The position numbers were made by a program, and so were the translations under genes. A DNA stretch of 64,000 bases, taken from contig NZ_BBJB01000085.1 in NCBI RefSeq assembly GCF_016584665.1, positions 62,001-126,000 on the forward strand, read 5' to 3'. Positions 2,789-51,946 of this stretch are shown one piece after another; within the stretch, counting starts at the first letter, position 1; every line of letters begins with the position of its first letter. Below the pieces are notes generated by a model. The model saw only the letters and a program-made list of their open reading frames with translations. It was not told the origin of the DNA and ran no database searches. This stretch comes from Pseudanabaena sp. lw0831. Its GTDB lineage: Bacteria > Cyanobacteriota > Cyanobacteriia > Pseudanabaenales > Pseudanabaenaceae.

Positions 2789-3154
2789 CTAATCTTTGAC
2801 TAATAACTTAATTGTGCGGATCAGTTCAGCAACATCCACTGGCTTGGTCAGATAAGCTGAAGCACCCTGTTTCATGCCCCAAAACTTATCCATTTCACCA
2901 CTCTTAGTAGAGCAAAGAATGATCGGAATATCTTTAGTCTCAGGCTTATCTTTCAGATCTCGGCATAACTCAAACCCACTTTCATTGGGTAAAACCACAT
3001 CGAGAACAATAGCACTAGGCTTTTGTTGGCTAATTTTAGTCCTAGCTTCATCGCCGCTCATTGCCAAAATCGTATTGAAGCCAGCATTTCTAAGACTACC
3101 TGTAATAATCTCAGCTTGAGTCATTGTGTCCTCAACCACTAAAATCGTACTCAT
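2789..3154 (-). CDS. CheY-like response regulator, PilH/PixH type
   Basis: Single-domain receiver of 121 residues. Acidic pocket residues Glu8-Asp9 are in MSTILVVEDT, the phospho-acceptor Asp52 is in VLDVVLP, the switch region is CSTKSGE, and the conserved lysine is in LTKPVD. There is no output domain, so it acts by binding a partner, as PilH or PixH does. It lies between the PatA/PilG-like gene and the cheW-like gene on the same strand, consistent with one phosphorelay operon for phototaxis or pilus control. PilG versus PilH naming follows operon position and length. Confidence 0.9.
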   Translation of the reverse strand: MSTILVVEDTMTQAEIITGSLRNAGFNTILAMSGDEARTKISQQKPSAIVLDVVLPNESGFELCRDLKDKPETKDIPIILCSTKSGEMDKFWGMKQGASAYLTKPVDVAELIRTIKLLVKD

Positions 3155-3259
3155 ATAAAAATTTTTTCCTTTACTTACTATTTTATTTATTGATGCGTTA
3201 TTAATGCGTTTATTGACGCACTATTGATATTAATGCGTTGAATTAAGAGTTTCTGCAAG

Positions 3260-4483
3260 CTAATTGGGATCAGCAAGTTGCAAAAACTTACGCAGTATTT
3301 GCAGAACTTTGGCAGGATCTGGTGGTTTGCTCAAAAAGTCTGATGAGCCAGCCATCTTCGCTCTTACCCGATCAATCATCCCATCGCGCCCCGTCAAAAT
3401 TACAATTGGGATTTCCTGAAATGTTGTGGTTTTCCGTAAAAAAGTACATAGTTCATAACCGTTAGTATTTGGCATCACCAAATCAAGAAAAATTAAGTCA
3501 GGCTTACGTTGCAATAAAGTACTAACACTTTGTAAAGGCTCAGTAATGCCCAGAACTTCATAGCCCAGAGGTTCGAGGATTCGCCTCATTTCAACTGCTA
3601 CTTGAGGACTGTCATCAATACAAGCAATCAAACCTCGAAGTGGAACTTTACTCGGCTTACTGGGCAATTTCCAATTTGGTGATATCCAATCAGGAACTTC
3701 GTGAAACGCCACAATCCCATCTACCACTAAGGGTAATAGCGATCGCATCACGGCAATCATCGAGCAGTGCATGATGATTGACATATCCCATAGGGTATTT
3801 TTGCCATTAACAATTTTCTTGAGCGTTTTATAGGTTTTGCTCGTGATGGCTTCGGAATTTAACATCAAGTCTAATTGGTCTGAATTAGCAATATAGGGCG
3901 CTAAATCAAAGGAAAATCCTTGAATCATATTCTGTACATGGGATAATCCCGCCTGCTGCCACCTTAATTGGGCTGCAACAATGTTATCTAAAGTCTGGGT
4001 CGTAGGTAAAGCAACGATTGGCTTAAATGCTAAAGCTTCTAGGGGCTTCCAAGATGATTTTGGATTCTTTTGATCGCATAGGCTATAAAAGACTTCATGA
4101 ATACTTGCCTGAATGATTGACCTCGCCTGCTCGGTCGTCAGTAAATTTTCGTGGATAGCCTGTTCAATGATCTTTACCTCCCAAGCGTCGGCAGTAGGCT
4201 TGGCTTGTTCGAGTAATTCTTGGATATTTACATTGGGTGAATGCTGACGAATCGCTCTTGCCAACCTGCGGACACGATGTTTGCCTCCAGTTGCATATAC
4301 CAACCGTCCTAGGTAAAAATATACATTCCAAGCAGGATCAGCCTCTTGGTCTCCAGTTACCAACAGTTCACCAGTAGCCTGTTGAAACAGGACATGTAGC
4401 TGCTTCAAATCTTGAATAAACTTAGGTTGGGATTGAATTGATGTGTCCACTAGACAAGTCTGGTAAGTAGCATGTATGAGCAA
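3260..4483 (-). CDS. PatA/PilG/PixG-like response regulator
   Basis: 407-residue regulator. The N-terminal 250 residues resemble the PatA-type N-terminal domain (DUF4388-like start GELLVTG...WNVYFYLGRLVYATGG). The C-terminal receiver holds the acidic pair in CIDDSP, phospho-acceptor Asp334 in FLDLVMP, and the lysine in FLSKPPDP. It is the first gene of the operon with PilH-, CheW- and MCP-like genes, the position of pixG/pilG in other cyanobacteria. The start used is a TTG at 4483; a GTG at 4450 would remove 11 residues and is also possible. No strong ribosome-binding site decides between them. Confidence 0.85.
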   Translation of the reverse strand: MLIHATYQTCLVDTSIQSQPKFIQDLKQLHVLFQQATGELLVTGDQEADPAWNVYFYLGRLVYATGGKHRVRRLARAIRQHSPNVNIQELLEQAKPTADAWEVKIIEQAIHENLLTTEQARSIIQASIHEVFYSLCDQKNPKSSWKPLEALAFKPIVALPTTQTLDNIVAAQLRWQQAGLSHVQNMIQGFSFDLAPYIANSDQLDLMLNSEAITSKTYKTLKKIVNGKNTLWDMSIIMHCSMIAVMRSLLPLVVDGIVAFHEVPDWISPNWKLPSKPSKVPLRGLIACIDDSPQVAVEMRRILEPLGYEVLGITEPLQSVSTLLQRKPDLIFLDLVMPNTNGYELCTFLRKTTTFQEIPIVILTGRDGMIDRVRAKMAGSSDFLSKPPDPAKVLQILRKFLQLADPN

Positions 4484-4758
4484 TACTGAAAATCACAGGC
4501 AACTAGAATATAGTCATTTGTCCTTATTACCTACTGATATAAATATCTGTTTACAAAGTAATCACAAGAAACTCACTAAGTAGCAATAGATACAGTTAAA
4601 ACATCTATAAAAAAACTTTTTGCTTGATTCTATCTTAGAAGACTGGTTTCAGGATTACTATACTATAGGAATTATTCTTTTTCTCTGTGTTAAACAATTA
4701 TTTAGTAAATTTCATTACTTCAGAGATTGACTTACAACACCATTGATACCCATAGTCC

Positions 4759-4847
4759 AAAATCGGTTTCATAATAAGAACTGCATTAGAACTGCTGAAT
4801 TCAGAATCTAACTCAACAAAATCCAAAATCAGTTTCATAATGACAAT
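4759..4847. repeat. Two half-copies of the ATGAGAAT-ended repeat in a 454-bp divergent intergenic region
   Basis: Positions 4759-4780 (aaaatcggtttcataataag) and 4824-4847 (aaaatcagtttcataatgac) are degenerate right halves of the repeat seen complete at 29376-29487. They sit in the gap 4484-4937 between two divergent regulatory genes. The rest of the gap is AT-rich and should hold both promoters, but I could not pick a convincing -35/-10 pair. No gene is visible in it. Confidence 0.6.
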
Positions 4848-4937
4848 CGTCGCAAATTTGTGATTGCCAAGTAAAAACCAAGAACTTGAAGTAGAATTTA
4901 GCTAAAGGATGTTTGTATAGAAATTTCATAAAATTTT

Positions 4938-7900
4938 GTGGATGCGCCTATGTATGCGAATAGTCAGGAAGTGCTACTTGAACAGGCGATCATTCGCTCT
5001 CCCTTAACGATCGCGGCAAGTGCAACTGTTGCCGACGCGATCGCCTTGATGAGTGTGGGGAGTCAAACTTGCAACTTATTATGTGAGATTGGCTCAGAAA
5101 CAGATTTGCAATTATCCCACGCCCAAAACAGTTGCATTTTAGTAACTGAAGGGAAAAAACTGATTGGTATTTTGACTGAACGTGACTTGGTTAGGCTATG
5201 TGGACAAAACGCGAATCCTGAAACTTCGGCACAAAATTCGGCGCAAAATCTGCTCGAAACTGCGATCGCTGAGGTAATGACATATCCAGTTCAATCACTG
5301 TTGGCGTGGGAATTTACCGATATACTTGTGCCGATTAATCGCTTCCATCGCTATAAGATCCGACATTTGCCACTAGTAAATGATCTCGGCGAAATCGTTG
5401 GGTTGCTCACCCATGAGAGTTTGCGGCAATTATTACGTCCCATCGATATGTTGCGCTTGCGTAAGGTCAGGGAGGTGATAATTACCTGTGTAATTCATGC
5501 AAATCCTACAGCTTCAGTAGCGCAGATTGCCAACTTAATGCTGGAGAAGAAAGTAAGTTCAGTAGTGATCGTAGAAGAGGGGGATAATGGTTTATGCCCT
5601 GTGGGAATTGTGACTGAGGGAGATATCGTTCAATATCTTGCTTTAGAATTAGCGCTAGCGACAACATCTGTACAACTAGTGATGAGTTTTCCAGTTGCTA
5701 CAGTCAGTCCAGATGAGACGCTTTGGACAGTGCGGGAGATAATGCAAGAGCGAATGATTAATCACTTAATTGTGACTAATCCAGATGGAACAATGGAGGG
5801 AATTATTAGTCAAAGTGATTTGCTTAATACACTTCAGCCCACAGAGATTTATAAATTAGTCTCGATGCTAGAAACAAAGATGTCTCGACTAGAGCAAGAG
5901 AAACTAGAGCTACTCCAAGGTCGTAATAAACTATTGGAGAGCCAAGTGCAAGCAAGCACATTTGCACTAGCAGGCAGTAATAATATGTTTCGTCAATTTG
6001 CCGAAAATAATCGTGGAGCGATTATTCTTCGTGAATTTAGCACTGGGAAGGTGGTGTATGTGAGTCCTCGATATGCTGATATTTGGGGGCATTCAAGTGA
6101 GTATTTATATCAAAATCCTGATATTTGGATGCAGTCGATCCATCCTGAAGATATTGATAGAGTTCTTCAACTTTATCAATTAACAGTTAGTAGTGGATTC
6201 TTTAGTGAGGAATATCGAATTATTCGTCCAGATGGCGATATTCGATGGATATGGGGACGCTGCTTCCCATTAAAAAATGCCAATGGAAAAATCGAGCAAA
6301 TGGCTGCTATTGCTGAAGATATTAGCGATCGCAAGATTGCGGAAATAGCCTTAAGGGAGAGCGAACAACGGTTAAAAGCAAGCGAGTCTCTCTTAAGTGC
6401 CATGTTTGAACGTTCAGTTGTAGGTATGGCAATTACTGATGCTGACGGTAAATTTGTTAGGACTAATCCTTTTTATCAACAAATGGTTGGCTATTCTGAA
6501 AATGAATTGCAATTAATGCGATTTACTGACAATATGCTGCCAGAAGATATAGAAGATAATTTGCGACTGCGTACTCAAGTCTTGTCTGGTGAAAGTGAAA
6601 GCTATCAATTGGAAAAGCGGCTTTTACATCGAGATGGCAAAATGCTTTGGGTACGAACAACTAGTTCTAAAATATTGGATGAAGTTGGTCAGCCACCACT
6701 TTTTGTTGGGGTTATCGAAGATATTAGCGATCGCAAACAAGCTGAAGAATCTTTGCAAAGTTTGGTTGAGGGAACTGCGGCTCAAACTGGAGAGAATTTC
6801 TTACCTGCATTAGTGCAGTACATTGCTGATGCTTTAGAAGTGCGCTATGTATTTATCACACAGAAGAAAGGAGGAATTCTAGAAGCTAGGGCGGCGTGGA
6901 TGGATGGACAACTTCATCCCACATTGTATTTTTCATTTGCAGATTCTCCCTGTACTTTAACAGTCAAAGAAGGAATATTTTTCTGTGCCGACAATTTGCA
7001 GCAGCATTTTGCTAAATGTGAATTTATAGAAAATCTGGATGTAGATTCTTATTTGGGAATTGCGATTGCCAATAGCAAAGGCGAAAAGATCGGTAGTTTA
7101 TGCATTCTTGACGACAAACCCATCTCTCAAGTACAACGGGCAAATGCGATGTTACGAGTTTTTGCAGCAAGAGCCAGTGCAGAGATAGAACGACAAGAAG
7201 CGATCGACGATCTCTATCAACTCAATCAACAATTAGAGTCAAGAGTTGCTCAACGTACGCAAGAGCTTCAATTTACCAATCAGCAATTGAGCGCGGCTAA
7301 TAATGAGCTAGCTAAGGCGACAAAACTTAAGGATGAATTTCTTGCCAATATGAGCCATGAACTTCGGACTCCGCTTAATGCTGTGCTAGGAATGTCTGAA
7401 GGTTTGATGACAGGAGTATTTGGAGATTTAAACGAGCGACAGATGCGATCGCTATCTCTAATCGAAACTAGTGGTCGGCATTTGTTGGAATTAATTAATG
7501 ACATTTTGGATGTAGCCAAAATTGGCGCAGGTAAATTAGATCTGGATCTTAGTTCTGTAGCGATCGAATATCTCTGCAAATCTAGTCTAAATTTTGTCAA
7601 GCAAATTGCTAATCAGAAAAATATTCAACTCAAATTATCTGTCAACCCCAGTATCAAAATTATCACAGTTGATGAACGGCGGATGAGGCAAGCTCTAATT
7701 AACCTACTCAGCAATGCAGTCAAGTTTACGCCTAAAGGAGGGAAAGTTTGCTTAGAAGTTAATCTTCAAGCAACAGAAACAACAGAGCTAACCGCTGAAT
7801 GCCCTTATGTAATGGTCTTCTCAATCATTGATACGGGTATCGGCATCTCTCCAGAAGATATCAGCAATCTATTTCAAGCTTTTGTCCAGATTGATAGCAG

Positions 7901-8510
7901 CCTAAATCGACAATATGCAGGTACGGGTTTAGGGCTTACTCTAGTCAAGCAGCTTGCGGAACTACATGGGGGCTGTGTGAGTGTTACTAGTCAAGTTGAC
8001 AAGGGAAGTTGTTTTTCGATAATTTTGCCCTATACAGAATCGATTGAATTAGATAAATTAGATAGAGCCAAGCCTCCATCAAATTCCTTTGGCGAGAGTT
8101 ATAACCAAGCAAGCAATTTAGAGAATAATTTAGCTGTTAATCCTTTGATTTTGCTAGCAGATGATAATCCCATTAATATTGAGACTTTCTCTAATTATTT
8201 AACTAATCGAGGATATCGACTAATTTTTGCTTCTAATGGTCAAGAAGCAATCAATATGACGATTGCCCAAAACCCTGATCTGATTCTGATGGATATTCAA
8301 ATGCCAGTTCTAGATGGACTCAGCGCAATTGAAAGTATACGAGCAAATCCAGATGTAAACAATATTCCCATCGTGGCGCTAACAGCCTTGGCGATGACAG
8401 GCGATCGCGAAAAATGTTTAGCCGTTGGTGCGAATGAATATCTCGCCAAACCTGTGCAACTATCTCATCTAACAGCAATCATCCAACAACAACTCCAGAA
8501 GCCCATATAA
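4938..8510 (+). CDS. Hybrid sensor histidine kinase: 4 CBS, 2 PAS, GAF, HisKA, HATPase, REC
   Basis: 1190-residue cytoplasmic kinase with no membrane segment. The first 320 residues hold four CBS motifs (two Bateman modules) that could bind adenine nucleotides. Two PAS-PAC units follow (about 345-465 and 475-600, each ending in a PAC-like EDISDRK), then a GAF domain (about 615-755). A coiled linker leads to the HisKA domain with His807 in MSHELRTP. The ATPase has NLLSNAVKF, DTGIGIS and GTGLGL. A C-terminal receiver has Asp1119 in LMDIQMP and a lysine in LAKPVQ. The start is a GTG at 4938; an ATG at 4950 is an alternative. It is divergent from the pil-like operon and could be co-regulated with it, but a functional link is inference. 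Confidence 0.92.
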   Translation: MDAPMYANSQEVLLEQAIIRSPLTIAASATVADAIALMSVGSQTCNLLCEIGSETDLQLSHAQNSCILVTEGKKLIGILTERDLVRLCGQNANPETSAQNSAQNLLETAIAEVMTYPVQSLLAWEFTDILVPINRFHRYKIRHLPLVNDLGEIVGLLTHESLRQLLRPIDMLRLRKVREVIITCVIHANPTASVAQIANLMLEKKVSSVVIVEEGDNGLCPVGIVTEGDIVQYLALELALATTSVQLVMSFPVATVSPDETLWTVREIMQERMINHLIVTNPDGTMEGIISQSDLLNTLQPTEIYKLVSMLETKMSRLEQEKLELLQGRNKLLESQVQASTFALAGSNNMFRQFAENNRGAIILREFSTGKVVYVSPRYADIWGHSSEYLYQNPDIWMQSIHPEDIDRVLQLYQLTVSSGFFSEEYRIIRPDGDIRWIWGRCFPLKNANGKIEQMAAIAEDISDRKIAEIALRESEQRLKASESLLSAMFERSVVGMAITDADGKFVRTNPFYQQMVGYSENELQLMRFTDNMLPEDIEDNLRLRTQVLSGESESYQLEKRLLHRDGKMLWVRTTSSKILDEVGQPPLFVGVIEDISDRKQAEESLQSLVEGTAAQTGENFLPALVQYIADALEVRYVFITQKKGGILEARAAWMDGQLHPTLYFSFADSPCTLTVKEGIFFCADNLQQHFAKCEFIENLDVDSYLGIAIANSKGEKIGSLCILDDKPISQVQRANAMLRVFAARASAEIERQEAIDDLYQLNQQLESRVAQRTQELQFTNQQLSAANNELAKATKLKDEFLANMSHELRTPLNAVLGMSEGLMTGVFGDLNERQMRSLSLIETSGRHLLELINDILDVAKIGAGKLDLDLSSVAIEYLCKSSLNFVKQIANQKNIQLKLSVNPSIKIITVDERRMRQALINLLSNAVKFTPKGGKVCLEVNLQATETTELTAECPYVMVFSIIDTGIGISPEDISNLFQAFVQIDSSLNRQYAGTGLGLTLVKQLAELHGGCVSVTSQVDKGSCFSIILPYTESIELDKLDRAKPPSNSFGESYNQASNLENNLAVNPLILLADDNPINIETFSNYLTNRGYRLIFASNGQEAINMTIAQNPDLILMDIQMPVLDGLSAIESIRANPDVNNIPIVALTALAMTGDREKCLAVGANEYLAKPVQLSHLTAIIQQQLQKPI

Positions 8511-47081: not shown

Positions 47082-47654
47082 CTATCTAATCGCTTGGACA
47101 TCCTTAGGCGCAAAGCCATGGGCACTTAATTCTTTGTTGAGAGCGATCGCATTCTTAACGCGATCGACAAACAAGACTCCATTCAAATGATCCATTTCAT
47201 GTTGAATTACTCTTGCAAGCAAACCTTCAGCTACAAGATGCTTGGGTCTACCATCTTCATCGCGATAAGACACCTCAACGCGATCGGGACGCACGACATC
47301 AAGAAATACTTCAGGAATACTCAGACAGCCTTCTTCACCAGTAATCAGGTCACCGCCTGAAGACTTTACTTCAGGATTGATCATTACTAAGGGCGGGATG
47401 TTCTCATCCTTGAGTTCGATATCAATAACGAGTAATTGCTTATTGATCCCCACCTGTGGCGCAGCAAGACCGATGCCATCGTTGCTATACATGGTTTGCA
47501 GCATATCGACAACAATCTGACGAATTTCGTCGTTTACTTTGCTAATGCGCTTGGCTGGCTGTCGCAATACGCGATCGCCTAGGGTATGGACTTGCAGTGG
47601 TGGATTCTTGAGCTTTTGCTTGGGGACTTTTATTGAAATTGCAGACATTGCCAA
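47082..47654 (-). CDS. def: Peptide deformylase
   Basis: Metalloenzyme that removes the formyl group from nascent proteins. The 190 residues have all three signature motifs: GIGLAAPQVGI, EEGCLSIPE and IQHEMDHLNG (HExxH). The C-terminus runs to KDVQAIR. Typical type 1B length. It lies upstream of the cupin and permease genes on the same strand, 54 bp away. Confidence 0.96.
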   Translation of the reverse strand: MAMSAISIKVPKQKLKNPPLQVHTLGDRVLRQPAKRISKVNDEIRQIVVDMLQTMYSNDGIGLAAPQVGINKQLLVIDIELKDENIPPLVMINPEVKSSGGDLITGEEGCLSIPEVFLDVVRPDRVEVSYRDEDGRPKHLVAEGLLARVIQHEMDHLNGVLFVDRVKNAIALNKELSAHGFAPKDVQAIR

Positions 47655-47754
47655 TCAGCTTGTAAATATAAGCTTGTAGTTAACTATTTATATTTTGGCA
47701 TATTGCATCGCTTGTTCAGCAATTAACCTGTTTTGCTTGGCTATGAGGCGTATG

Positions 47755-47829
47755 CATTCTTGCTATTAACTATCATCGCCCCATTAATATAGCTAAAAAT
47801 CTCGTCTAGTTCAGCGATCGCTTCTAGCT
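47755..47829 (-). pseudogene. Possible ParE/RelE toxin N-terminal relic
   Basis: On the minus strand the frame EAIAELDEIFSYINGAMIVN looks like the first helix of ParE-type toxins (AxADLxEIxxYI) and then ends at a TAG. It lies between hicB and def. The match is short, so this is tentative. Confidence 0.3.
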
Positions 47830-47833
47830 CAAG

Positions 47834-48061
47834 TTAAGCAGCTATGAAGTCGGATTTTTTAATTATGCGTGGAGTTGGTAATGGTTTGTGACGAGCAGTA
47901 TAATCTTCGATTAGTAATTCCAAAACTTCTAAAGCATTTTCTAGTGCGCTAGCATATGTATCGCCGTGAGTGTGGGCGTAGGGACCAAATTCGGGTAGGT
48001 GAGCGATAAATTTGCTATCTTCTTCTGACCATTGGATAGAAATGCTGTAGTTACGATTCAT
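47834..48061 (-). CDS. hicB: HicB-family antitoxin
   Basis: 75 residues with the partial RNase-H-like HicB fold: SISIQWSEEDSKFIAHLPEF, then GDTYASALENALEVLELLIE and a short basic tail (PTPRIIKKSD). No separate DNA-binding domain follows, as in short HicB proteins. It begins 12 bp after hicA, the usual toxin-first order of this family. Confidence 0.92.
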   Translation of the reverse strand: MNRNYSISIQWSEEDSKFIAHLPEFGPYAHTHGDTYASALENALEVLELLIEDYTARHKPLPTPRIIKKSDFIAA

Positions 48062-48073
48062 GGAAGTTCTCCT

Positions 48074-48277
48074 CTATTGTTGTTGGTCAATATCTCGTAG
48101 TGCGTTTCTTACGTCTTTTTCTTGGTAGCGATCAGCATCGTTGCCATCTTTGCCTGATAGGGTGAGGCTATATTCTAGTTTAGGATGACTCCAGACGGTG
48201 TGGCTACCTTTGCCAGAGCGATAGGTGAAGCCAGCTTTTAAAAGCATTGCTTTTAGTTCTCTAATTTTTTTAGCCAT
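48074..48277 (-). CDS. hicA: HicA-family toxin (mRNA interferase)
   Basis: 67 residues with the dsRNA-binding-like HicA fold: KIRELKAMLLKAGFTYRSGK and the catalytic histidine in GSHTVWSHP. The length and the charged C-terminal helix (RYQEKDVRNALRDI) are standard. It is upstream of hicB and 55 bp downstream of the TPR gene, all on one strand. Confidence 0.92.
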   Translation of the reverse strand: MAKKIRELKAMLLKAGFTYRSGKGSHTVWSHPKLEYSLTLSGKDGNDADRYQEKDVRNALRDIDQQQ

Positions 48278-48332
48278 CGGACATTATTTGTTGCAGCATT
48301 TGCTCTATTTCATCGGGATTATTTTGGATCAT

Positions 48333-49904
48333 TTACTCTAATGTAGCAGGATCAAAACCTGTTAAGATTCGCAGTTTTAACATCATTAGAGAAGACGTTA
48401 CTGTTTGGGTATTGGGATGGTCTTGTCCGAGGGTTTGCACGAAAATTGCTAAGGATCGTGCATAGAGAGGTTCAGCTTTGCGGTATTTCCCTTGCGAATC
48501 GTAAAGTCCTGCAAGATTGTTGAGACTGATGGCGACAGCGGGATGCTCTGATCCTAGTTGCCGTTCCCTGATTTCCAGTGATCGCCTATAAAGAGGTTCG
48601 GCTTCGCTGTACTTCCCTTGCGATTTGTAAAGATATGCGAGATTGTTAAGACTGGTAGCAACATCAGGATGTTCTACTCCTAGTTCCCGTTCCATAATTT
48701 CGAGTGATCGCAAAAAGAGGGTTTCGGCTTCGCTGTACTTCCCTTGTGAATGGTAAAGCCCTGCAAGATTGTTGAGACTAATGGCGACATCGGGATGATC
48801 TACTTCTTGTTGATGTACTTTGATATCGAGAGATCGCAAATAGAGAGGTTCGGCTTCGCTGTACTTCCCTTGTGAATGGTAAAGCTCTGCGAGATTGTTG
48901 AGACTAATGGCGACATTGGGATGGTCTACTTCTTGTTGATGTTCTTTGATGTCGAGAGATCGTAGATAGAGAGGTTCGGCTTCGTTGTAATTCCCTTGTG
49001 AATTGTAAAGTTCTGCAAGATTGTTGAGACTGGTGGCGACAGAGGAATGTTCTACTCCTAGTTCCCGTTCCCTGATTTCGAGCGATCGCAGATAGAGAGG
49101 TTCGGCTTTGTTGTACTTTCCTTGGTAATAATACAGAAATCCCAATTCATTCAAACTATGAGCAAGTTCTAGAGAGAGATTAAGCTTTTCTTGAAGATCG
49201 ATTGCTTTCTCCCATGTGGAAATTGCCTGATCAATCTGATTATCGCGCTTATAGGCTTTTGCCAATAACGTGTAAAACGTAGCCAAACTCGCATCCTCTT
49301 GACCAGTAGCCTCCCGTTGAGCAATATAAACCAACAACTCATCAATCGGCAGATCCAAATCATCAGACTCAGGATCTGGAAAATCAATTGGTTCAACATC
49401 AATCGGTACAATCGTCTCCTCTTGAATTGACTCAAAGAAAAATACACCCTGTCGCCAACTGTAGAAATCTTGGGCTTTACGCGAAATCTCATTGTGAATA
49501 TGTTCAGTTACCCAAATCACAATCGGAAACGTAAACTGACGCATTCCCTCCCTAGTCCATTGCAAATAGCCCAAAAACTTATCGACAGGCGATCTCTCAC
49601 CCTCTGATACAAAACTCGACAAACTCACCACCCCCTCCACCGTAATCACCGCAAGATTCCCATCCTGTAAATAGGGTTCCGCTCCAACCAGTTGATTAAT
49701 CGCAGCAAATAAACTTGGTTCTTGGCGATCAATCGTCACGCGATAGGATTTAATTCCCTCTGAGGCTAACTCCTGCTCATATCGCTCAGTTAAAGAATTT
49801 CGCAAGCGATCTCGATCGCAAACGGCAAGCAACAAACTCAAATGCTTATTACTCGTCTCAATCGCAACAAGTAAATCTAGAAAATTAACTTCATTCGGTT
49901 CCAT
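48333..49904 (-). CDS. TPR (kinesin-light-chain type) protein with degenerate N-terminal NTPase-like domain
   Basis: 523 residues. The N-terminal 170 (LSLLLAVCDRDRLRNSLTER; VIWVTEHIHNEIS; AQDFYSWRQGVFFFES) resemble the NTPase-like domain found before TPRs in cyanobacterial STAND-type proteins, but there is no Walker A loop. About six 42-residue repeats follow (SLNNLAELYHSQGKYSEAEP), with neighbouring DNA copies nearly identical. A short C-terminal tail ends in LTGFDPATLE. The AAA ATPase gene ends 15 bp upstream on the same strand, so the ATPase could supply the missing nucleotide switch. A sensor or scaffold role is inference. Confidence 0.82.
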   Translation of the reverse strand: MEPNEVNFLDLLVAIETSNKHLSLLLAVCDRDRLRNSLTERYEQELASEGIKSYRVTIDRQEPSLFAAINQLVGAEPYLQDGNLAVITVEGVVSLSSFVSEGERSPVDKFLGYLQWTREGMRQFTFPIVIWVTEHIHNEISRKAQDFYSWRQGVFFFESIQEETIVPIDVEPIDFPDPESDDLDLPIDELLVYIAQREATGQEDASLATFYTLLAKAYKRDNQIDQAISTWEKAIDLQEKLNLSLELAHSLNELGFLYYYQGKYNKAEPLYLRSLEIRERELGVEHSSVATSLNNLAELYNSQGNYNEAEPLYLRSLDIKEHQQEVDHPNVAISLNNLAELYHSQGKYSEAEPLYLRSLDIKVHQQEVDHPDVAISLNNLAGLYHSQGKYSEAETLFLRSLEIMERELGVEHPDVATSLNNLAYLYKSQGKYSEAEPLYRRSLEIRERQLGSEHPAVAISLNNLAGLYDSQGKYRKAEPLYARSLAIFVQTLGQDHPNTQTVTSSLMMLKLRILTGFDPATLE

Positions 49905-49919
49905 TGCTTCGCCATATTG

Positions 49920-51227
49920 TTAAGGAGTCAATCGCTCTTGAACTAATTGCCACAACAACGGATGCACATCATGCCATTCCCGCGCATTGCGATATTCCAA
50001 AACTGGCAAACCCTTCAGCAATCCCAAAAACTCACTATCACGGGGATCATCAGGGGCATAGTATTGATAAACCGTTTTTAAAATCTCATAGTCTACTTTT
50101 CCCAAGGGACGCGACATTTGCAAACGCAGATTATTCGCCGCTTCCTCAACCACTGTCAGCGAAATTTTTAAATTGCTCACATCCCCATCTTCAGGTAGCG
50201 ATCGCAACTGACGCAAACAAATGCGACAAGACTGCTGCACAATCCGAATCACCTCACGCAACACACCGCCACTATAGGCAATCACTTTCTGTAATGCCTC
50301 TGGCTCAAATAGTTCTAAATCAATTCGCTTTGCCAATAACTTCTCAAGCTTGTCAACAATCTCCATAACAGGAGTAGGATCTGGATGGCGACTCTCACCT
50401 TTTTTATATAGCTTCAAAATTCGCATCGGTACAATGCGATCGCTGGTTTCCGTCTCTAATATAGGCACAATATCTTTGTCATGCAAAGCCGAGATCGGCA
50501 ATGTGTAAATGATTTGCAAATTAGGCAGAAATAGCGCCTTAATATTATTGATAAAAACATCGCGAATTACTGGTATCTCTAGCTTATCGATATCATCAAT
50601 AATCACCAAAATATTTTTTCCACTTGCCCCATTAGCAATCGCTGCAATCTCATTTAACTTCGCAACTAATTCCGATACCTTTCTCTCAAATTCTTGCTTG
50701 ATTTCCTGCCGAATCACTGCATCAACTTTAAGTTTCAAGCCAATTAGTTCTAATAGTTTTGCCCCGATACTAGCTTCACCCGTTACTTTCAACTCCTCAG
50801 ATTTTGTTTTTTTCGCAAACCAGTTAAGTAAGCTCTCTTTGATTTTTGGGGAAATCGTCACATTCTGAATTTCTGCCTCTTGCATGATCTTTAAGGCGAT
50901 CGCAAACAAAATCGTAACGTGATTCACATCTGCATTCTCGATTGTATTAGCAATAGAAAAGCGCACCACAAAAAAGCGATCGTGTAATTTTTGGGCTAGC
51001 GCCGCTAGTAAAGTAGACTTCCCACAACCAGTATGACCACTAAAAATAATTTTGCTCGACTGGCTAGGACTATCTTCGACTAACGCCGCAAGTTCTTCTA
51101 AAGTCTCTAGATCATACTCAATTGCAAACCGATCCAACGTAGAGGCATTATCTAAGGGAAACAACTCTAAGTTATTAGCTGCTTCCCTAAAAACTTCAAT
51201 TAATTGATTACGAGTACGTTGAGACAT
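49920..51227 (-). CDS. AAA/STAND-like P-loop ATPase, partner of the TPR protein
   Basis: 435 residues. Walker A GHTGCGKST (64-72) is preceded by IIFS. Walker B is ILVIIDDIDKLEI near residue 210, and a sensor-like region follows (LPNLQIIYTLPISALHD). After the P-loop module come a helical lid (KLYKKGESRHPDPTP... YSGGVLREVIRIVQ) and a winged-helix-like C-terminus ending in HPLLWQLVQERLTP. It looks like an Orc/Cdc6- or KAP-like ATPase. No nuclease or transmembrane domain is present. With the downstream TPR gene and hicA-hicB it forms a same-strand block of four. Confidence 0.85.
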   Translation of the reverse strand: MSQRTRNQLIEVFREAANNLELFPLDNASTLDRFAIEYDLETLEELAALVEDSPSQSSKIIFSGHTGCGKSTLLAALAQKLHDRFFVVRFSIANTIENADVNHVTILFAIALKIMQEAEIQNVTISPKIKESLLNWFAKKTKSEELKVTGEASIGAKLLELIGLKLKVDAVIRQEIKQEFERKVSELVAKLNEIAAIANGASGKNILVIIDDIDKLEIPVIRDVFINNIKALFLPNLQIIYTLPISALHDKDIVPILETETSDRIVPMRILKLYKKGESRHPDPTPVMEIVDKLEKLLAKRIDLELFEPEALQKVIAYSGGVLREVIRIVQQSCRICLRQLRSLPEDGDVSNLKISLTVVEEAANNLRLQMSRPLGKVDYEILKTVYQYYAPDDPRDSEFLGLLKGLPVLEYRNAREWHDVHPLLWQLVQERLTP

Positions 51228-51348
51228 TGGAATATTGTGCTGTCCTTAGCTTCTAAATCCACCTTTACATTGTAAGGCGAAATTGCTTAGGTATGGTACA
51301 ACAATGATGTTCTCGTTGTAACTTGTAATCTGGGACTAAGATTTAGAG

Positions 51349-51831
51349 CTATAACAGATTGAAGAATGCTGAATCAATTTCGTAGCCTAGGCTTTGGGTC
51401 ATTTGTTGTAACTTTGCCGTGCTGTCAATACCGCGCGACTTGAGCCAGAGAGAAATTGTGAATATCTTCTGCATTACAAAAAGCTCCAGTGCTTCAGGAT
51501 TGTATTGCAATACATAGCCATCACCTTCGCGCTTAAACTGGTGGGGAACTAGCATCGCGGCATAGCGACTGAGTTCTGCACGCCAATCGAGGAGATAGCT
51601 AAACCAAGGATAGGTGGCATCGAGACGCACAAACCAGAGACGCACTTCCGAGATTTCTGATAGTTCGCGAGGATCGCCATCTTCCTTATCCCACACAAGT
51701 TCGATTTGAAACTGGCGATCGCCTTCGGGAGTTTTATCCCAATTTGCTAATAACTTCGCGATCGCAATTTTGGCAGGAGTAATATCCAGCGACTCAATAC
51801 AGGCTTGGTTGACGTAGATGATAGTAGACAT
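51349..51831 (-). CDS. CRR6-like NDH-1 assembly factor
   Basis: From the ATG at 51831 it has 160 residues; 13 upstream codons are unsupported. The conserved block DPRELSEISEVRLWFVRLDA, then YPWFSYLLDW and RYAAMLVPHQF, then QYNPEALELFVMQKIF is that of the CRR6 family (chlororespiratory reduction 6), needed for NdhI maturation in NDH-1. The length fits. It is not linked to ndhN. The assignment rests on remembered family motifs. Confidence 0.8.
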   Translation of the reverse strand: MSTIIYVNQACIESLDITPAKIAIAKLLANWDKTPEGDRQFQIELVWDKEDGDPRELSEISEVRLWFVRLDATYPWFSYLLDWRAELSRYAAMLVPHQFKREGDGYVLQYNPEALELFVMQKIFTISLWLKSRGIDSTAKLQQMTQSLGYEIDSAFFNLL

Positions 51832-51837
51832 ATGGCT

Positions 51838-51946
51838 TTTAGAGCTAAGTAAGATGGGCGCTTTGCGCACATTAAAGATTAAATATTTATTTTTTGGTAA
51901 GTTTTTGCGAAGAATAAGTTTAATGGGCGCAAAGCGCCCATTAAAC
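51838..51946. repeat. Two copies of a gatgggcgcttt-type palindromic unit
   Basis: 51853-51877 (gatgggcgctttgcgcacat) and 51921-51946 (aatgggcgcaaagcgcccat) are related palindromes. Each is followed by tattttttggtaagttttt-like sequence (about 51890 and 51950). A tandem duplication of about 65 bp seems to have occurred between the crr6-like and dnaJ genes. Confidence 0.6.

Follow-up and report, generated by a model that had tools for sequence, protein, structure and literature searches.

A conserved cyanobacterial gene pair encoding an AAA+ ATPase and a Walker-A-less AAA+-like TPR protein: a probable two-protein receptor with hicAB as a passenger

Organization of the locus

The window analysed here is a 64,000-nt stretch of Pseudanabaena sp. 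lw0831 (GCF_016584665.1, contig NZ_BBJB01000085.1, positions 62,001–126,000 of the forward strand). Four genes follow one another on its minus strand in the transcriptional order ATPase, TPR protein, HicA and HicB (Table 1), separated by 15, 55 and 12 bp, respectively, and both the reading frames and the Pfam matches confirm this same-strand block as it had been described in the first-pass annotation. The ATPase and TPR genes form a genuine conserved unit, and hicA and hicB lie outside it. The direct neighbours of the pair are crr6 and a peptide deformylase gene (by Pfam) and a dnaJ-like gene (by reading), with no MoxR or vWA gene recognised among them. A promoter and terminator scan of 47600–51900 returned sites that were rarer than in shuffled sequences, and no terminator-like site on the minus strand of that interval, an outcome that favours neither side.

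Table 1. Features of the pair and its surroundings in the window.
Feature	Coordinates	Strand	Basis or remark
hicB antitoxin gene, passenger, 75 aa	47834..48061	-	HicB_lk_antitox 0.0014, below Pfam cut-off
Segment without counterpart in syntenic G019: TPR 3′ end and hicAB, as in G013/G014	47834..48510	-	Synteny comparison
hicA toxin gene, passenger, 67 aa	48074..48277	-	HicA_toxin 3.2e-8, above cut-off
In-frame tail past the TPR stop, 20 codons and stop	48270..48332	-	Read by eye
TPR protein, 523 aa: inactive AAA+-like N-domain, linker, TPR array; presumed sensor	48333..49904	-	Pfam, model
TPR array, 42-aa repeats, about aa 201–500	48405..49304	-	Pfam, comparison with G019
Inactive AAA+-like N-domain, aa 1–158, without Walker A; motifs QWTRE, SWRxGVF	49431..49904	-	Model, motif counts
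AAA+ ATPase, 435 aa: P-loop core, helical lid, probable C-terminal winged helix	49920..51227	-	Pfam, model, motifs
Walker B VIIDDIDK, aa 208–215	50583..50606	-	Alignment, motif counts
Walker A GHTGCGKST, aa 64–72	51012..51038	-	GHxGCGKST invariant in 13 aligned ATPases
crr6, housekeeping	51349..51870	-	Pfam; variable site on its downstream side contains the pair

An intact ATPase beside an inactive AAA+-like TPR protein

The best Pfam match of the ATPase is KAP_NTPase (PF07693; 4.6e-9, 36.4 bits against a cut-off of 20), and its matches to nSTAND_NTPase5, NACHT, nSTAND3 and NPHP3_N, among the 25 of 31 families listed, all fell below the Pfam cut-off. Inserted membrane helices are frequent in KAP members, if not present in all; the ATPase scores above the family cut-off but shows no sign of such helices (maximum 19-residue hydropathy of 1.3). 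A separate ATPase with a good P-loop had been proposed in the first-pass annotation, and this is borne out by the intact GHTGCGKST and by the retention of Walker A (as GxxxxGK[ST]) and Walker B in 67/67 homologues and of SGGxxR in 66/67. Foldseek placed the predicted model with ORC/Cdc6, TnsC and RdrA at E near 1e-6, yet with TM of only 0.3–0.5; the lid is modelled, and the winged helix lies in the low-confidence part (aa 391–420 have pLDDT <50). A search among relatives of solved structure gave weak P-loop matches alone. The ATPase is a KAP/ORC-like AAA+ protein with an intact P-loop. It carries no repeats in its own chain, the superstructure-forming repeats being located in the neighbouring protein.

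This neighbour matches Pfam TPR_12 at 1.2e-85, and among the 25 of 35 families listed none has its best stretch in aa 1–200 and none is an effector family; among the families listed, no effector domain was seen in either protein of the pair. The N-domain (aa 1–175) is predicted as a five-stranded AAA+-like α/β fold (pLDDT 89) that aligns with TnsC at Z 12.5 and 3.3 Å over 154 residues. Because its neighbours in the PDB are AAA+ cores in general (TnsC, ORC/Cdc6 and NSF, including NSF D2), the label "STAND-type" applied to it in the first-pass annotation is true by fold class only. The loss of Walker A given in that description is confirmed, and STAND identity by sequence is not supported: hhalign detected no sequence similarity between the N-domain and the ATPase. 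A search for relatives with solved structure gave no match at E≤1 and a single match at E=1.1. GxxxxGK[ST] after strand 1 occurs in 0/67 N-domains; two GxGK strings were found, both before strand 1.

The linker and TPR array vary more than the rest of the locus. From aa 176 onward, the window protein is 66.4% identical to its syntenic orthologue in G019, against 96.8% for the ATPase, 94.9% for the N-domain and 96.2–99.5% for the flanking genes, and the corresponding values between G019 and G022 are 73.4% (linker and TPRs), 96.1% (ATPase) and 93.6% (N-domain). Across 307 comparisons of pairs with similar ATPases from the 80-locus set described below, median identity was 87.0% for TPRs versus 90.2% for N-domains, and TPR identity was the lower of the two in 243 comparisons, the excess TPR divergence being small. 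Part of the divergence in the window reflects a putatively imported 3′ end of the gene. As a pattern of sequence variation, the behaviour of the array suggests a sensor.

Conservation of the pair across genomes

A gene-neighbourhood survey, as the first-pass annotation had proposed, found the pair conserved: at 76/80 loci, a partner gene encoding a Walker-A-less AAA+-fold domain, usually with TPRs, lies downstream of the ATPase gene in the same orientation. These are the best 80 of at least 380 confirmed relatives, and therefore the closest and Nostoc-rich; they include a MAG filed under Gracilibacteria (L178), a locus on the contig of L089 (L187) and one whose length equals that of G024:C33 (L183). 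Pairing, scored as a same-strand N-domain frame at most three frames further on (at gaps from –44 to 461 bp), accounted for 66 loci, to which a six-frame search added 10. At three of the unpaired loci (L149, L150 and L163) the sequence ends inside the ATPase or at most 136 bp past it; at the fourth (L129), 499 bp remain beyond the ATPase, with no N-domain match. The ATPase frames of L161 and L166 are broken. The longest frames overlap in 47/67 ATPase–partner pairs, an upper bound since the longest start was used. We scanned 72 partners: 8 family members and, from the 80 loci, 64 of 67 called partners (the short L165, L170 and L176 were omitted). A TPR_12 match was present in 71 of them, and the 25 of 68 Pfam families listed include no GT4 or HEPN.

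Rather than being mostly apart, ATPase and N-domain homologues were adjacent in 38/42 places when 291 sampled cyanobacterial genomes were scanned, with the best ≤6 and best ≤11 candidates per genome scored and gaps taken between match ends. The pair is patchily distributed (34/291 genomes). Four unpaired ATPases in this sample lie at contig ends (G134, G170) or have short frames (G153, G250), and 4/42 N-domain places lack a close ATPase, one of them at a contig start. In a set of 38 genomes, 14/19 close ATPases (E<1e-40) are paired, the remainder being two fragments and three intact genes. Since these three intact close-family ATPases of the genus (G022 L093, G017 L094 and G027 L095) have no N-domain partner, the ATPase can evidently function otherwise. 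The genome of the window itself has eight ATPase-type loci, of which five are paired, three of these being close copies.

We also examined 23 diverged ATPases from 24 hand-chosen loci, some of them picked for a previously known N-domain match. An N-domain partner accompanies 19 of these ATPases; none was recognised at L018 (at a contig end), L019, L021 or L197. The scanned partners of these diverged ATPases bear TPR, WD40 or nSTAND1-WD40. Identity matrices of N-domain and ATPase from 39 representatives correlate with r=0.86 (0/2000 permutations as high), a value that common descent also raises, with the nearest neighbour agreeing in 21/39 only. Reading of the neighbourhoods showed no constant third gene up- or downstream. 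Pairing of the ATPase with the TPR protein is thus conserved and, by its gene arrangement, operon-like. The "split STAND-like sensor" of the first-pass annotation survives as a conserved pair of switch ATPase and Walker-A-less AAA+-fold/TPR protein, and not in the STAND identity of the N-domain by sequence.

hicAB as a passenger

HicA and HicB were assigned by family, from the HicA match and the HicB frame adjacent to it. They do not recur beside the pair: in the survey, 0/79 related loci (of the best 80, L150 being unscored; frames ≥45 aa) had HicA or HicB nearby, and 63 of the 79 extend >900 bp past the partner gene. By coordinate comparison, 1/29 HicA places in the 38 genomes adjoins a pair. 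The syntenic locus of the close relative G019 has no hicAB; homology between it and the window ends within the TPR array and restarts at the base following the hicB stop. Near-identical hicAB genes also follow a TPR remnant (G013/G014) and an NB-ARC + TPR-tail locus (G026). The TPR frame stops at 48333–48335, and because a second in-frame stop overlaps the hicA start (ATGGCTAA, 48270–48277), this frame probably once ran into hicA.

We take the segment without counterpart in G019 as a probable recombination import. On these comparisons, hicAB is an unrelated toxin–antitoxin passenger, apparently a late arrival with the TPR 3′ end. The first-pass annotation had left a choice between HicAB as effector of the sensor and HicAB as independent passenger; the absence from all 79 loci scored and from G019 speaks for the latter, and these same results, with the placement of hicAB after other TPR sequences, speak against the former. 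HicAB was rejected as a third component of the system on the same evidence. The TPR–hicAB junction may illustrate how toxin–antitoxin genes hitch-hike on repeat-mediated recombination, imitating an operon.

Genomic context and searches for known defence systems

The crr6 site was readable in 22/26 genomes of the genus (G030, G031, G018 with 585 bp and G027 with 1060 bp were left out). It holds the pair in three of them and PDC-M29-like and/or HEC-01-like candidates in nine, with both in none. A Nostoc plasmid carries, next to MoxR and VMAP, a fusion of a related ATPase with a SAV_2336-type protein, and in G022 the neighbours of a close-clade ATPase include a CHAT-domain gene and a ChlD-like gene. 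Sharing of the crr6 site, the VMAP–MoxR fusion and the divergent TPR array together suggest a possible part in biological conflict. Many neighbours of the pairs read as housekeeping genes rather than as defence islands.

No PADLOC model names the pair, which gave nothing beyond weak matches to P-loops or TPRs, and a search for a known defence system with PADLOC and NCBIfam gave nothing specific. In viral contigs, 22 pattern matches contained 0 relatives. A plasmid search with the N-domain gave no match; with the ATPase it gave 8 records, all diverged (22.6–26.8% identity). A literature search, with most subscription papers outside its reach, found no description of this pair.

Discussion

We consider it fairly probable that ATPase and TPR protein each supply one half of a single NTP-dependent receptor, likely with a conflict role, and that hicAB is a passenger. 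In such a receptor, the TPR array would bind a ligand, probably derived from an invader or from stress, and the Walker-A-less N-domain would dock on the separate AAA+ ATPase, to which it could lend contacts in trans; candidates are the conserved arginines of the QWTRE and SWR motifs. Ligand binding would then lead the ATPase to bind or hydrolyse ATP and to oligomerise, with the output given by the assembled ATPase (AAA+, lid and winged helix). The job of a single-chain NLR or Avs protein would here be divided over two proteins, and its likely role would be in biological conflict (phage response) in cyanobacteria.

Other explanations account for parts of the evidence. That the pair acts instead in transcription- or replication-type regulation, as an ORC/Cdc6/TnsC-like DNA-loading ATPase with a winged helix and a TPR adaptor serving cell physiology rather than conflict, would fit the best Foldseek matches (ORC/Cdc6 and TnsC), the many housekeeping-like neighbours and the absence from the viral contigs searched. 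We nevertheless regard it as unlikely, given the patchy presence in 34/291 genomes, a TPR divergence in the window's clade that far exceeds that of the flanks, a crr6 site common to candidate defence genes and the VMAP–MoxR locus into which a related ATPase is fused. TPR adaptors are used by other AAA+ systems, and NSF D2 is among the fold neighbours of the N-domain, as would be expected if the TPR protein were a chaperone-like or scaffolding adaptor acting on cell proteins, in an NSF/SNAP- or MoxR/vWA-like remodelling couple with no sensing of invaders. A plain adaptor would have no need of the AAA+-like domain that the partner bears, and the WD40 or nSTAND1-WD40 present in place of TPR among diverged pairs is consistent with sensors being exchanged, which makes this a decidedly poor prospect. 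The remaining proposal, a four-gene toxin-armed receptor in which the pair senses an event and releases the HicA RNase, draws on the shared strand, the 55- and 12-bp gaps, the probable overlap of the older TPR frame with the hicA start and the near-identical hicAB behind the G013/G014 and G026 TPR sequences. Set against it are the 0/79 loci, the 1/29 HicA places and the hicAB-free G019 locus with homology resuming right after the hicB stop, and we judge it highly improbable.

Comparison with known systems

The proposed two-protein receptor is best read as a variant of active/inactive STAND pairs. In Kaur et al. 2021 (PMC8195603), nSTAND2 is a two-gene operon that pairs an active with an inactive NTPase of the STAND class; the two are proposed to assemble into a hetero-multimer and predicted to counter invaders. 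Active and inactive NTPase genes are adjacent here as well, the likeness being one of gene adjacency alone. The inactive partner of nSTAND2 bears effectors, most commonly GT4 or HEPN, whereas the window-type partner bears TPR or WD40 and no effector was seen; the nSTAND2 NTPases are placed near CR-ATPases, Dap3 and RNA12, whereas the present ATPase is KAP/ORC-like. No profile named iSTAND, iSTAND2 or nSTAND2 turned up in the family libraries searched. The ternary MoxR-vWA-iSTAND and iSTAND2 systems of cyanobacteria, tied to the multicellular habit, likewise combine an active AAA+ ATPase with a catalytically dead STAND domain that is presumed to be the sensor (PMC7159879 and PMC8195603). Unlike these, the window pair has no MoxR or vWA recognised beside it, although a related ATPase is fused into the VMAP–MoxR locus of the Nostoc plasmid. 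With the NLR-like Avs and bacterial NACHT proteins (PMC10907252 in excerpt, the details being general background), the pair has in common an NTPase switch and a C-terminal repeat sensor; those proteins combine both in one chain with an N-terminal effector, whereas here switch and sensor are separate and no effector was seen. The BrxB-type iSTAND of BREX is another inactive STAND-class domain proposed as a sensor; it has neither Walker motifs nor the C-terminal helical bundle, it belongs to BREX, and the accessible portion of that account (PMC12839542) describes neither a TPR array nor an ATPase partner of the present family.

A bolder and more tentative possibility, which we hold to be less likely than not, is that the pair belongs to a large and still unnamed family of immune receptors in cyanobacteria. 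The NLR principle would be split between an AAA+ switch common to all members and a pseudo-AAA+ adaptor with exchangeable arrays (TPR, WD40, nSTAND1-WD40), the arrays diversifying by recombination among near-identical repeats, with several pairs per genome and a switch that could be rewired (VMAP–MoxR, CHAT protease). If the two-protein receptor is real, the genomes of some cyanobacteria each encode several such receptors in parallel, with switch and sensor as separate proteins, so that, unlike in single-chain NLRs, sensor exchange or switch inactivation would be possible independently and the role of the dead AAA+ domain could be addressed. It would also provide a function for ATPases that appear in plasmid records as "P-loop NTPase fold protein", "KAP family NTPase", "ATP-binding protein" and similar names.

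Conservation of the ATPase–TPR gene pair

The ATPase and TPR genes head a four-gene block, whose coordinates the first-pass annotation had placed correctly on the window sequence. In the best 80 of 380 confirmed relatives from named genomes, a same-strand downstream gene encoding the N-domain (residues 1–158 of the TPR protein) was found at 76 loci (66 by ORF calling and 10 by six-frame search). An evenly sampled set of 291 cyanobacterial genomes held the ATPase at 42 places in 34 genomes (E ≤ 1e-60) and the N-domain at 42 places in 32 genomes (E ≤ 1e-25), with an N-domain match 8–615 bp downstream of 38 of the 42 ATPase matches; four N-domain places, one at a contig start, lacked an adjoining close ATPase. 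Homologues lying mostly apart, the outcome named at first pass as a refutation, were not observed, and sequence comparison indicates that the pair is a unit. The longest frames of ATPase and partner overlap in 47 of 67 pairs, which suggests coupled translation. Among 39 representatives, ATPase and N-domain identities correlate (r = 0.86), and the nearest neighbour is the same in only 21. Reading of the neighbourhoods revealed no other constant gene beside the pair.

The family search covered 38 genomes, in which 19 close ATPases occur, 14 of them paired; the remainder are two fragments and three intact genes (G022, G017 and G027) without an N-domain partner. The G022 locus has neither N-domain nor TPR partner, and at the G017 and G027 loci, where no N-domain was found, two small genes of no recognised family separate the ATPase from a TPR remnant. 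The window's cyanobacterial host genome (5.26 Mb) carries five pairs (three close, a diverged one with TPRs and one of the nSTAND1-WD40 type) and three unpaired ATPase-type loci, one at a contig end. At L166, an insertion of ~1.1 kb containing two frames splits the ATPase gene; the downstream N-domain gene is open.

Coordinates of the four-gene block and of related loci
Feature	Sequence	Position	Strand	Remark
ATPase gene	window	51227-49920	minus	first in transcription order
TPR gene	window	49904-48333	minus	15 bp after ATPase gene
hicA	window	48277-48074	minus	55 bp after TPR gene
hicB	window	48061-47834	minus	12 bp after hicA
TPR stop, 20 in-frame codons, stop	window	48270-48335		second stop overlaps hicA start
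Unpaired close-clade ATPase	L093 (G022)	5707-10950		extra N-terminal part; beside CHAT-domain and ChlD-like genes (latter below its NCBIfam cut-off)
Intact ATPase, two ~120-aa genes, TPR remnant, HicB-like gene	L094 (G017)	3394-5986		
Same arrangement	L095 (G027)	3677-6734		
Split ATPase gene	L166	6989-9433		
Interrupted hicAB	L106 (G022)	3024-4503		
Lone HicB-like gene, TPR 3′ end	L085	1534-2386		DUF4926 and DUF6883 genes too
Lone HicB-like gene, TPR 3′ end	L016	2123-2443		
Lone HicB-like gene, TPR 3′ end	L096	2436-2795		
PDC-M29-like/HEC-01-like candidates	L209 (G023:C13)	3436-7137		also loci L211, L213-L217, L222, L228
SAV_2336-type/ATPase fusion	L206 (p057_J)	5234-8158		

The arrangement extends to diverged relatives, a recognisable diverged N-domain gene following 19 of the 23 diverged ATPases examined in the family. 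Nine diverged downstream partners were scanned, with TPRs in six, WD40 repeats in two, and nSTAND1 plus WD40 in one; the TPR partner at L197 has no recognised N-domain. Paired members fall in several clades of a 50-ATPase tree.

An ATPase with intact motifs and a predicted inactive partner

The top Pfam match of the window ATPase was KAP_NTPase (4.6e-9, above cut-off), with AAA_22 and AAA slightly above their cut-offs, and AAA_16 and the STAND-class models below theirs among the 25 of 31 matching families listed. The predicted model (mean pLDDT 71) comprises an AAA+ core and helical lid, with a low-confidence C-terminal winged helix, and Foldseek placed ORC/Cdc6, RdrA and TnsC at the top of its PDB matches (E near 1e-6, TM-scores only ~0.3–0.5). 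Of the homologues for which a partner was called, all 67 have Walker A and Walker B; 66 also carry SGGxxR at the lid, a motif we take to be sensor 2.

TPR_12 was matched by 71 of the 72 partners scanned. The N-terminal part of the TPR protein matched none of the Pfam families listed, and a PDB sequence search with the N-domain gave no noteworthy match. Its model from 47 aligned sequences (pLDDT 89) has a five-stranded α/β core, for which Foldseek returned AAA+ proteins, though with modest E-values (5.7e-4 at best); structural alignment gave Z 12.5 (3.3 Å over 154 residues) for TnsC, 11.1 for Orc/Cdc6 and about 11 for NSF D2. The motif GxxxxGK[ST] is absent after strand 1 from every N-domain examined; conserved instead are AVCD after strand 1, QWTRE and SWRxGVF. 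Because of these fold matches and the missing motif, the N-domain is predicted to be an inactive AAA+-like domain. The Walker A loss described at first pass therefore stands, while the accompanying STAND label holds only by fold class and context, hhalign giving no sequence link to the ATPase.

hicAB as a passenger

The first-pass annotation had offered HicAB as either effector or passenger. Searches with the window proteins (phmmer) found no HicA or HicB homologue at any of the 79 loci scored; at 63 loci the sequence past the partner gene exceeds 900 bp. G019, a close relative, shares the window's order dnaJ-crr6-ATPase-TPR-peptide deformylase, with hicAB absent. These results speak against HicAB as a component of the unit; the effector option is very unlikely, and by sequence comparison hicAB is a passenger. 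Across 38 genomes HicA occurs at 29 places, and by their coordinates only the window's adjoins the pair.

DNA homology between the window and G019 runs from 51274 to 48510, ending within the TPR array, and restarts at 47833, immediately past the stop codon of hicB. Window positions 49433 to 47834 are matched in G013 and G014 by a TPR fragment that has hicAB but neither N-domain nor ATPase, at 90.7% TPR identity versus 66.4% for the syntenic G019 orthologue; in G026 an almost identical hicAB comes after a TPR tail, itself preceded by an NB-ARC gene. The TPR frame probably once extended over the start of hicA, and a recent nonsense mutation has probably truncated the window's TPR protein. By these comparisons and the older frame, hicAB travels with a TPR 3′ end. 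Recombination through the TPR repeats is the likeliest route of its arrival in the window, loss from G019 being the less favoured explanation.

Transposase-like frames (by reading) interrupt a G022 hicAB copy close to the window's, again with TPR sequence nearby. Lone HicB-like genes lie at other TPR 3′ ends in the genus, and PIN-type genes, by reading only, follow the pairs at L101 and L192.

Proposed mechanism and likely role

The TPR array would act as sensor, the dead AAA+ domain would couple sensing to the ATPase, and the ATPase would be the switch and assemble. Of the split switch and sensor suggested at first pass, the conserved pairing of an ATPase that has intact Walker motifs with a TPR partner lacking Walker A is retained. 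The analysis shows the pairing, the active and inactive motifs, predicted folds, variability and the absence of hicAB elsewhere; binding, ligand, oligomer, output and defence are inferences. Output is the weakest point, since no effector was seen in either protein.

No paper describing this pair was found in the literature searched. The closest published concept is the nSTAND2 two-gene system, in which, according to PMC8195603, active and inactive STAND NTPases share one operon. The plan is the same, active and inactive NTPase genes together; by description the pair differs from nSTAND2 in its families, in an inactive protein that carries presumed sensors rather than effectors, and in its occurrence across cyanobacteria.

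Window and G019 are 66.4% identical over the linker and TPRs, a figure partly reflecting the imported TPR 3′ end, versus 94.9–99.5% for ATPase, N-domain and flanking genes; for G019 and G022 the linker and TPRs are 73.4% identical (ATPase 96.1%, N-domain 93.6%). This excess divergence is strong in the window's clade and small in the pairs from the 80 loci, where median identity is 87.0% for the TPR part and 90.2% for the N-domain. The downstream side of the housekeeping gene crr6 is a variable site in the genus: of 22 readable genomes, three have the pair there, eight an AAA_15 gene accompanied by a small one, and three an AAA_21/DUF4276-type gene. Either of the latter types occurs in nine, none also with the pair. 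PADLOC called the G023 copies AriA-like/PDC-M29 and HEC-01, and in the remaining genomes resemblance to the G023 proteins was the basis of the count; by model match alone, these are candidate defence genes. G015 (L227) has a helicase-like gene, by reading, instead of the pair, and other genomes have none of these genes.

On Nostoc sp. C057 plasmid p057_J, a related ATPase domain (HMM 4.9e-46) is C-terminal in a SAV_2336-type protein. Next to the fusion lie a gene annotated as MoxR and one whose product has VMAP-C and VMAP-M1 domains, the layout of the VMAP ternary conflict systems described in PMC7159879. The SAV_2336-type protein, a name absent from that paper's text, may be the vWA component, and the ATPase switch perhaps acts as the output module of such a system. 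An Acaryochloris plasmid carries a diverged pair in the company of TIR and NB-ARC genes. Because of the TPR divergence, the variable crr6 site and these plasmid contexts, biological conflict would be the likelier role of the pair.
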